Source of the DNA: Streptococcus bovimastitidis
Lineage (GTDB): Bacteria; Bacillota; Bacilli; Lactobacillales; Streptococcaceae
Reading direction: 5' to 3'
Length of the DNA stretch: 64,000 nucleotides
Assembly: GCF_001885095.1 (NCBI RefSeq)
Contig: NZ_LZDD01000001.1
Coordinates: 310,001 to 374,000 of the forward strand
The position numbers and the translations under genes are program-made. Numbering within the stretch: position 1 is the stretch's first letter; each line of letters opens with the position of its first letter. The notes beneath the pieces were generated by a model. It had not been told where the DNA came from and made no database searches. It saw only the letters and a list, made by a program, of their open reading frames with translations. Shown piece after piece: positions 15,106 through 63,452 of this stretch.

Positions 15106-15758
15106 TGAGAGTTGGACGCAAAAAATTAAAGCAAATCCTTGAAACAATTGCGGTCATGTTTCCGGAAGCCAAGGGAGAATTGGATTGGGAGCACCCATTT
15201 CAATTGCTGATTGCTGTCATTTTGTCGGCTCAAACGACTGATAAGGCCGTTAATAAAATTACCCCGCAACTTTGGCTCAAATACCCTAGGATTGAAGATT
15301 TGGCCAATGCTCAATTAAGCGATGTTGAAGATGCCTTAAGGACAATTGGTCTCTATAAAAACAAGGCTAAAAATATCATCAAAACGGCTCAAATAATTTT
15401 AAGTGATTTTGATGGACAGGTTCCTAAAACCCATGCGGAATTGGAAACTTTACCGGGCGTTGGACGTAAGACAGCAAATGTCGTCTTAGGTGAAATTTAT
15501 GGCATTCCTTCCATTGCAGTAGATACCCATGTGTCGCGCGTGGCTAAACGCCTCAATATTTCAGCACCTGATGCTGATGTTACACAAATCGAAGCTGACT
15601 TGATGGCTAAAATTCCAAAAAAGGATTGGGTGATTACCCACCATCGTTTGATATTCTTCGGTCGCTACCATTGCTTGGCTAAGAATCCTAAATGTGCTAC
15701 CTGCCCCTTGCAAGATTCCTGCCTCTACTACAAAGAAAACATCAAAAAGAAAGCCTAA
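15105..15758 (+). CDS. nth: Endonuclease III
   Basis: A 217-residue base-excision glycosylase/AP lyase for oxidised pyrimidines. The helix-hairpin-helix LPGVGRKTANVVL is near residues 112-124 (catalytic Lys included), the catalytic Asp is in AVDTHVSRV near 138, and the 4Fe-4S cluster cysteines are in CLAKNPKCATCPLQDSC near 190-206. The AQTTDKAVN block is also typical. It is coupled to the dnaD-like gene by a one-base overlap and its last codons enter the terminator at 15744. Confidence 0.96.
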   Translation: MRVGRKKLKQILETIAVMFPEAKGELDWEHPFQLLIAVILSAQTTDKAVNKITPQLWLKYPRIEDLANAQLSDVEDALRTIGLYKNKAKNIIKTAQIILSDFDGQVPKTHAELETLPGVGRKTANVVLGEIYGIPSIAVDTHVSRVAKRLNISAPDADVTQIEADLMAKIPKKDWVITHHRLIFFGRYHCLAKNPKCATCPLQDSCLYYKENIKKKA

Positions 15759-15772
15759 AGGGCTTTCTTTTT
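15744..15772 (+). terminator. nth terminator
   Basis: A 12-bp stem (15744-15755 with 15761-15772) with a 5-nt loop and T run; the TAA stop of nth is in the loop. A near copy of this hairpin is found at 16173-16195. Confidence 0.85.
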
Positions 15773-16013
15773 GATATAATATTCTTAAAAATTTTATATT
15801 CTAATAGTTAATTCAAAAATAATAATTGAGTACTTTCATATTTAGATTGGGTCTAATTTTTTATTTTATCTATTTAATAATCTAATCGAATAGAAGTCTC
15901 AAAATAAATTTATTCTAAAGCAGTTTTTAATAAGAACTAACAAAGTAAGTATCATTATTTTATAAGTCTTAAATCATTATATTGCAAAGCTTACGAGTGA
16001 AACGAGTCAAACG
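15773..16013. other. AT-rich gene-free stretch before repeat element A
   Basis: About 240 bp of very AT-rich DNA with no reading frame, promoter pair or long hairpin that I can support. The last 25 bases (ACGAGTGAAACGAGTC near 15994-16009) resemble the bases just before the second copy of the repeat at 63148-63163, so the repeat family may extend slightly to the left of its inverted-repeat end. Confidence 0.5.
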
Positions 16014-16149
16014 GATACTTTACACCGTAGCAAAAATGTCAGAAACTTTGTGTTTCTGACATTCGGAAATCTTAAGACCTTAGGCTTAAGATTTAGGTAT
16101 GGAATTCTGAAGGAAGTCGCTACCGTCCGAGCTACTTAAGTAAAGTATC
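16014..16149. repeat. Structured intergenic repeat, copy A (BOX-like)
   Basis: Bounded by the inverted repeat GATACTTT (16014-16021) and AAAGTATC (16142-16149). Inside, in order: CCGTAG (16025-16030), a perfect 12-bp hairpin (16035-16046 with 16052-16063), CGGAA, a perfect 9-bp hairpin (16067-16075 with 16086-16094) with loop GACCTTAGGC, ATGGAAT, GTCGC-4nt-GTCCG, and CTAC (16132-16135) which can pair with GTAG of the first block. The same blocks in the same order are found at 63174-63305, where both hairpin stems have different sequences but remain fully paired. No reading frame is present. It resembles streptococcal BOX/MITE repeats in style. Confidence 0.85.
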
Positions 16150-16172: not shown

Positions 16173-16195
16173 AAGAAAGCCTAATGGGCTTTCTT
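16173..16195 (+). terminator. Second copy of the nth-type terminator hairpin
   Basis: A 9-bp stem (16173-16181 with 16187-16195) followed by TTGTTT. Its sequence, including the loop start, repeats the hairpin at the end of nth almost exactly, so the stretch between (with repeat A) is flanked by direct copies. Confidence 0.7.
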
Positions 16196-16213
16196 TTGTT
16201 TAAGTCTTGAATT

Positions 16214-30839: not shown

Positions 30840-31180
30840 CCTTTCTGTCTGCTTGATTAAACCATTATATCATAGCAGACAAGCAATAGGAAAAAAAGTT
30901 CTATTTAGCTTGTCGTTTTGATGAATAATATAAGTTGAATCAATTTTCTGTTTTCAAGGTAGACATTAATTCTATTTTATACTTTTCAAAGGTGGTTACG
31001 GATGACTTTAACAGTCAGGAGTTTGACGATTGAAGGTTGTAGATAATGAACTGCAGTGTAGTTCTCCAACTTTTAACGACACTCTTTAGAACTTGTAATC
31101 CTCCTTCGCTTTTTTATTTGTAGGCTCAGGCAGAAATCATCCACAGGATAATTTCTCTCCCCAAAGTCCAGAAATGAGCA
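30840..31180. other. Gene-free stretch between rqcH and the trp leader
   Basis: About 340 bp with no supported gene. It contains small inverted repeats (for example GACT/AGTC near 31004-31018 and GAACT/AGTTC near 31050-31065) and GGTTG/CCAAC near 31035-31075, which together could fold into a branched structure, but I found no T-box sequence or other known riboswitch core. The function, if any, is unknown. Confidence 0.4.
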
Positions 31181-31188
31181 AATTCTTC

Positions 31189-31216
31189 TTGCATTTTTCA
31201 GAAGATAAGCTATAAT
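31189..31216 (+). promoter_or_regulatory. Promoter of the trp transporter leader
   Basis: TTGCAT at 31189-31194, a 16-bp spacer and TATAAT at 31211-31216, 30 nt before the leader peptide ATG. Confidence 0.75.
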
Positions 31217-49369: not shown

Positions 49370-49685
49370 TAAACATACTTTTTTGAGTGCTTGGGACGGA
49401 AGCGGATCCTTTTAGAAATCTACTACTAAAACTTATGCCAAAGCTCTAATAATTTCCTAGGTGATTGACTAATCATTTTAGCTAAAAAAATATACAGAAA
49501 ATAAATTGCACCCTATGAGTTGAAATGAAAAATCAAAGGCTTTTCAGTCCTTGTAATGGCATTGTTTTATCAGATTCATCAATAATTCTTGTCGGATCTC
49601 GCTTAGGTTTTGATCAGTCAATGCTCTCTTCTTAAAAAAATGCTTAGCAGTTAACAATGCAGCAAAATCAACTATAATTGCTTAA
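49370..49685. other. Decayed gene-free stretch before the LPXTG remnant
   Basis: About 310 bp with no supported open frame and stops in all frames. It probably holds unrecognisable remains of the surface protein whose C-terminal end is at 49686-49802. A minus-strand open stretch of about 45 codons (near 49550-49680) is not convincing as a gene. Confidence 0.4.
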
Positions 49686-63173: not shown

Positions 63174-63305
63174 GATACTTTCCTCCGTAGTGGAAGTAAC
63201 TGAAAAGAAATTTCAGTTACCGGAATTTTTTAGACCTAGGCTAAAAAATTAGCAATGGAATCACGCAGTGAGTCGCTTGCGTCCGCACTACTACAGGAAA
63301 GTATC
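63174..63305. repeat. Structured intergenic repeat, copy B (BOX-like)
   Basis: Bounded by an 11-bp perfect inverted repeat (GATACTTTCCT at 63174-63184 and AGGAAAGTATC at 63295-63305). Inside: CCGTAG (63185-63190), a 10-bp hairpin (63196-63205 with 63211-63220), CGGAA, a 9-bp hairpin (63224-63232 with 63242-63250) with loop GACCTAGGC, ATGGAAT, GTCGC-4nt-GTCCG and CTAC (63288-63291). Order and spacing match copy A at 16014-16149; the hairpin stems differ in sequence but are perfectly paired in both. Just upstream lies GCGAAC-GAA-GTTCGC, a further hairpin. Confidence 0.85.
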
Positions 63306-63320: not shown

Positions 63321-63452
63321 GAATTATGTAGGAAGAAACTGCAGGAAGTTTCTCTTTTTTCTTCAACAGTCACTTCCCTAACTGTTGAACCCATCCGTGC
63401 TGCTTAAGTAAAGTGTCAACAAAAGATATAAGAAAATGGATAGGAAAGTATC
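63321..63452. repeat. Decayed tandem copy of the structured repeat
   Basis: Directly after copy B: GTAG (63328-63331), a 7-bp hairpin (63334-63340 with 63347-63353), a perfect 9-bp hairpin (63362-63370 with 63381-63389), then CCGTGCTGCTTAAGTAAAGTGTC ending at 63417, of which the last part resembles the right end of copy A (CTACTTAAGTAAAGTATC). Another right end, GGAAAGTATC, is at 63443-63452. No complete left end is present, so this is a truncated or rearranged copy. Confidence 0.6.

Follow-up and report, generated by a model that had tools for sequence, protein, structure and literature searches.

The window, a 64,000-nucleotide stretch of the Streptococcus bovimastitidis genome, contains a structured element on its plus strand at two places, copy A (16014-16149) and copy B (63174-63305). 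Both probably represent old copies of a branched RNA module that is conserved and in streptococci has spread largely as the cargo of a non-autonomous IS1182-family element of about 250 bp (a MITE), with the fold acting as RNA. The parts are known and their combination is unexpected: a MITE of a known IS family, an unusual target duplication, and a conserved RNA fold met once before as a small RNA (sRNA).

Both copies are present with the shared blocks that a sequence-only reading of the window had described. Hairpin 1 measures 10 bp in B, as given there, and 11 bp in A by the predicted fold, where 12 had been counted. An unfiltered scan of the window with our covariance model R1 scored A at 144.8 bits (E 1.3e-35), B at 118.9 bits (E 7.8e-29) and a third, decayed copy C on the minus strand (49374-49494) at 33.1 bits (E 2.6e-6); A and B are among the 29 sequences from which R1 was built, and their scores are therefore not independent. 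The whole genome has eight distinct R1 places at E <= 1 (nine rows, two of which are the two strands of a single place). RNA folding of the plus strand gave -52.7 kcal/mol for A (z -6.9) and -48.4 kcal/mol for B (z -6.4), none of 200 shuffles of either being equally stable. The minus strands fold too (z -8.5 for A and -7.1 for B).

Copy A lies between nth and trmK, and copy B between lepA and msrB. A is flanked on the plus strand by a pair of hairpins equal in 24 of 25 letters, a terminator hairpin upstream (15747-15771, AAGAAAGCCTAAAGGGCTTTCTTTT) and a terminator directly 3′ of the module (16173-16197), where a terminator-like site was also predicted (16173-16195). The upstream gene ends within the left hairpin, its stop codon being at 15756-15758. 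The pair is spaced about 400 nt apart instead of the usual 250, so that the left arm of A is about 150 nt longer than that of other units. Downstream of B, sequence reading revealed a hairpin with a T run (63335-63361, plus strand). No duplicated hairpin was seen around B, the flank match there (score 33) being an A-rich direct repeat and not one hairpin present twice. A promoter scan around A returned three sites against 2.2 expected. A motif of type GCGAGCGNNGCGAGC occurs shortly 5′ of the module at 15993-16006, as it does in many copies (e.g. L074, L079 and L028), at purE sites and in mobile units.

The module consists of a closing stem, a GTAG/CTAC-type stem, a free hairpin 1, and a stem in which CGGA pairs with TCCG around hairpin 2 and a third arm. 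The loop of hairpin 2 is GACCTTAGGC. The ATGGAAT and GTCGC blocks belong to the third arm (GGTA/TACC in A and GCAA/TTGC in B), which holds an ATGGAA/GTCGC internal loop. The shared ends GATACTTT...AAAGTATC are the closing stem and not the mobile ends. Mobile ends, where they survive, are found about 90 nt away on the upstream side and 24 nt away on the downstream side. The GATACTTT stem was ruled out as a transposase end: it covaries (GATAATGG, GAAACTTT, GAGACTTT, TAGCCTTT) and lies inside the real ends. The hairpin 2 loop may take an extra module of about 55 nt, one of which is present in another copy of the same genome (L002). In the window, a sequence 94% identical over 36 nt to the L002 insert (31103-31159, minus strand) is found inside another composite repeat (about 30978-31200), whose end resembles the 3′ side of the module and which may be a different type of element sharing modules. 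A loop module of about 50 nt is likewise present in one genome (G191; L111, about 212781-212968) and absent from the orthologous copy in that of a close species (G189; L093, about 253126-253263), in the manner of boxB in BOX elements.

Analysis with RNAalifold of 29 sequences, from this genome and 16 others of the genus, yielded 47 pairs, 37 of them with double-sided change. In alignment A5 (41 rows, 38 distinct, including two reverse-strand rows and one decayed row), pairing was kept in 95.7% of the cells of the 38 distinct rows, and 42 of the 47 pairs had changed on both sides. When partners were shifted by one to three columns in the same rows, double-change cells fell from 489 to 44-93. 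Alignment A1 was produced with MAFFT and not fitted to the model; A2, A4 and A5 were fitted to it, and their pair counts therefore lean towards structure. Pair covariation thus strongly supports the compensatory evolution of a folded nucleic acid that the sequence-only reading had seen in two copies, with the caveat that a process at the DNA level may contribute.

The family is far larger than those two copies. R1 matched 258 of 284 genus genomes (E <= 0.01), with copy numbers per genome that are lower bounds (up to 11 candidates scored in each), and five copies were found in each of two 400-kb stretches. An order-level scan matched 45 of 295 genomes in three genera, and outside the genus only two genomes had matches: G396, where 48 rows, of which one is a reverse strand, give 47 places, and G426, with three weak places. 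The copies of G396, which belongs to another family, are diverged, have long outer stems, are sometimes in tandem and have no IS1182-type ends by eye (L248-L267). A class-level scan of 398 genomes with the wider model R2 matched 26, all of the same genus, and all seven named exact-pattern matches were Streptococcus. A blastn search of plasmids and phages gave no match.

Many copies are the cargo of an element of about 250 bp with the ends CAGATTGAAGACAAA...TTTGTCTTCAATCTG, flanked by two near-identical local Rho-independent terminator hairpins whose sequence differs from locus to locus. Such a duplicated hairpin scored at least 28 in 23 of 58 copies, compared with 1.06% of 3298 mismatched-locus pairs, and stayed below in 35. 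The inverted ends, CAGA..G(A/T)AGACAAA and TTTGTCTTCAATCTG, lie directly inside the hairpins. Ends within four mismatches were found in 27 of the 58 copies on the left and 27 on the right, against shuffle expectations of 0.2 and 2.0 for the two sides; a recognisable end is absent on a given side in 31, and under half of the 58, which include orthologues and are not independent, keep ends or duplication. The distance from hairpin to hairpin was 233-260 nt at ten loci. When the joined flanks of six loci were searched against 34 genomes, uninterrupted unoccupied sites were found at four. At one of these loci (L055), six genomes are unoccupied (five at 98% and G083 at 86%), and ten have both halves apart. 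The unoccupied sites have one hairpin and the occupied sites two. One unit (L088, G189 141389-141841) is split by a multi-copy 180-bp repeat and has further loop inserts, and the corresponding site in G191 (about 313047-313242) holds the 180-bp repeat alone.

The probable mobilisers of the unit belong to the IS1182 family. Of 197 genus genomes, 109 had the transposase of this family (NCBIfam NF033551) at E <= 1e-10, and 62 of these exceeded the curated cut-off; the S. bovimastitidis genome itself had no match. Of 30 IS1182 loci taken, 27 were long enough to judge, and in 24 of these both ends were within three mismatches of CAGATTGAAGACAAA, while in 18 a hairpin of 18-38 bp was directly repeated against the ends. 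The end asymmetry is concordant, as the left end of the IS, read from the sequences, resembles the right end of the unit. Because the unit shares its ends and its whole-hairpin duplication with the IS1182 elements of the genus, we regard it as their non-autonomous derivative. It has the features of a MITE: it is short (233-260 nt), lacks a transposase, and shares inverted ends (27 of 58 copies at each end) with an autonomous IS (the same 15-mer in 24 of 27 loci). Its target is duplicated in 23 of the 58 copies, though not around window copy B, and four loci have unoccupied orthologous sites. The fold was unmatched in 28 of the 30 IS1182 loci. The idea that the IS itself carries the module was considered, and there is one carrier among the 30 loci and one abutting unit: L199 (G125) is an IS1182 element in which the module is placed between the left end and the gene for the transposase, and L204 (G087) is a unit fused to an IS1182 left end. 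Both were read as recombinants. A candidate autonomous element delimited by paired ends (G189, near 225743-226715) was rejected, as inspection by eye revealed no frame resembling a transposase and the stretch has the look of a remnant.

The ends, and not the fold, look like a transposase substrate. The earlier suggestion of a target for a trans-acting enzyme may hold only for these IS1182-type ends. A barely credible alternative is that a recombinase acts on the folded single strand itself, as at attC sites, and that the fold drives mobility in place of the ends. The near-perfect Watson-Crick arms, free in sequence and fixed in shape, would suit such a substrate, as would a unit lying in opposite orientations between the same flanking genes of two close species (G189 about 110012, G191 about 345576). 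However, inverted repeats border the inverted stretch, for which ordinary recombination can account, and the insertions abut the IS1182-type ends rather than the fold.

Wobble pairs bear on whether the fold acts as RNA or DNA. In 64 sequences (the best 74 of 83 rows minus identical ones; reverse-strand, truncated and decayed rows were dropped), we counted 51 GU against 22 AC among 2966 cells. At the purE site, the counts were 37 and 24 among 1565 cells (binomial p 0.12). These counts mildly favour the plus strand as RNA. GU is nevertheless rare and AC mismatches are not much rarer, which is unusual for RNA; 20 tRNAs used for comparison had GU in 34 of 445 cells and no AC. Hairpin 1 of one copy (L012) is, over its loop, the reverse complement of hairpin 1 in the orthologous copy (L011). 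Given the rare GU and this flipped hairpin, a DNA-level process that keeps the arms complementary may add to the covariation, and we keep it as the main rival. In its full form, the element would be a purely parasitic repeat and its fold without RNA function, the palindromic arms being kept perfect by template switching during replication, in which one arm is rewritten from its partner in a way that mimics compensatory evolution. Right hairpin copies at two loci also depart from the unoccupied target in ways that fit arm-to-arm copying, that of L064 being more symmetric (compared with L166) and that of L053 having its central base complemented (compared with L163). We consider this explanation unlikely. 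Arm copying gives no reason for the high conservation of the unpaired GACCTTAGGC loop, TTAG, ATGGAA and GTCGC, which are among the most conserved positions of the module.

Conservation in place speaks against the parasitic explanation as well. Twelve genomes share a locus that has a duplicated terminator on its flanks (L012 and L019 lack the left copy). There, the two inner module bins of 35 nt had 97.1 and 98.6% identity, better than the coding DNA. Identity was 94.5% in the bin of hairpin 1, 92.0 and 91.5% in the outer-stem bins, 91-96% in bins within the flanking genes and 88-94% elsewhere in the unit; of the terminators, the left bin reached 98% and the right one 85%. As the outer parts are no better conserved than coding bins, only the inner half of the module is clearly above them.

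The fold also occurs without mobile ends at fixed sites before purE and yhbY. At the purE site, where the module is kept across many species, a persistence not expected of a parasite, there were 34 matches at 31 of the 32 loci searched. Pairing there was 95.5%, with 345 double-change cells against 12-47 in slid controls, and 32 of the 47 pairs covary at this site alone; since copies may have exchanged the module, some of these changes may have arisen elsewhere. The genes purD and purE were identified at a single locus (L025), and the others were found through similarity to the start of its purE. No duplicated hairpin accompanies the purE copies. Another fixed site is between yqeH and yhbY (L023, and L022 by likeness).

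These sites raise the alternative that the module is in essence a cis-acting element of mRNA, such as a leader or processing signal between purD and purE, that a transposon picked up once. In its favour, the module is sense-oriented right before the purE start region at the purE loci displayed (31 of 34 matches), it is in tandem at three of them (L227, L230 and L235), and its location before yhbY is similar. Among 60 copies whose neighbours were oriented by a simple, crude open-frame rule, however, 22 lie between convergent genes and 17 are antisense to both neighbours, with 19 co-directional with both and two between divergent genes, and by eye the interval between module and purE has no terminator or covered ribosome site. 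We consider a cis-acting origin very improbable. The regulatory RNA module offered by the sequence-only reading is plausible for the copies fixed before purE and yhbY, and another of its offers, a MITE with a folding transcript, agrees with the mobile copies in their ends, duplicated hairpins, unoccupied sites and IS1182-type termini.

Published expression data bearing on this family come from an sRNA of Streptococcus pyogenes, SSRC8, which was detected by Northern blot and whose ends were mapped by circular RACE (PMC3675131); this expression, too, is at odds with a purely parasitic repeat. A scan of the window with Rfam found no family at its threshold. In a permissive search, part of the module resembled SSRC8_2 (RF02616). 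The match in A (16061-16126) had E 9e-14 and 51.4 bits and that in B had E 2.4e-8 and 34.8 bits, both below the gathering threshold of 72 bits. A unit of S. cuniculi (L074, 6657-6961) matched model positions 1-281 end to end at 90 bits, and the match runs from one hairpin copy through an end, the module and the second end to the other hairpin copy. The six remaining matches, in six loci, scored 52-66 bits; L015 and L017 span positions 1-281 at 53 bits, below the threshold. Thus a described family covers one whole unit, and the window copies themselves stay short of an exact match to it. Homologues of SSRC8 in other streptococci are reported to cover only about nt 149-247 (PMC3675131), and this part is the module. 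Judged by the Rfam model of the S. pyogenes sRNA, SSRC8 is a unit of this family. The accessible text of PMC3675131 treats SSRC8 as a trans-acting sRNA, uses the word "repeat" once and mentions no transposon origin.

Taken together with the SSRC8_2 match, the preferred reading of a MITE with an RNA cargo would work as follows. An IS1182 transposase would act in trans on the ends of the unit, and insertion into a Rho-independent terminator duplicates the whole hairpin. The left hairpin copy would continue to serve the host gene as its terminator, and the right one would end the transcript of the element itself. With the target hairpin duplicated, each insertion would install a finished sRNA unit at little cost, the host terminator being unharmed. 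The fold would act as RNA, either in a free sRNA or inside a transcript as before purE, and selection would keep it where it is useful, even once the transposon ends have decayed. Because the fold is unmatched in 28 of 30 IS1182 loci and many fixed copies lack ends, a role of the RNA in stability, processing or protein binding seems likelier than one in transposition. More tentatively, and with less confidence than in the reading as a whole, we suggest that the element is a transposon with a selected functional RNA cargo, in which terminator duplication makes each landing site a finished sRNA gene, and that this mobile riboregulator may have been domesticated repeatedly in the streptococci (purE, yhbY, SSRC8 and others). 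Such a mechanism would be a simple route by which transposition creates new sRNA genes with host termination unbroken, and it opens a genus-wide RNA family to functional study.

This reading joins an orphan sRNA of S. pyogenes, probably the BOX-type repeats of S. suis, the hairpin-targeting IS1182 elements and the structured element before purE, four parts described apart or, in the literature searched, not at all. In that literature, mostly without subscription journals, we recognised no description of a streptococcal IS1182 MITE with this RNA. Membership in the pneumococcal BOX family (boxA/boxB/boxC) was ruled out, in line with the first impression that the element is not BOX: R1 gave 1.8 bits on a putative BOX element (L016), and a profile of 30 BOX copies missed every module copy in the window and in the two 400-kb stretches. 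Like the module, the pneumococcal repeats BOX, RUP and SPRITE (PMC3049150) are small, dispersed, structured and often near gene ends; sequence sets the module apart from BOX, and RUP and SPRITE were compared by description. Among the closest published systems are the BOX-type elements of S. suis, boxE-(boxB)-boxF, in which boxE and boxF (115 + 133 nt) amount to 248 nt and boxB is shared (PMC3049150). They have in common with our units a size of about 250 nt, optional inner modules and dispersed copies, and by this description the S. suis members of the family are probably the published boxE/boxF elements; the part of PMC3049150 that was available gives neither a link to IS1182 nor a terminator duplication for them. 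The QMITE2 sRNAs of Coxiella likewise derive from a MITE (PMC10969869), and a genus-wide conserved multi-helix fold, present in the streptococcal module, is not mentioned for them in the available text. Finally, staphylococcal IS1272 and TnSha1, also of the IS1182 family, insert into terminator hairpins as the streptococcal elements do. Their blunt entry is, however, reported to delete part of the hairpin (PMC4923244), whereas here the whole hairpin is duplicated, and full duplication is therefore a difference between members of one transposase family.
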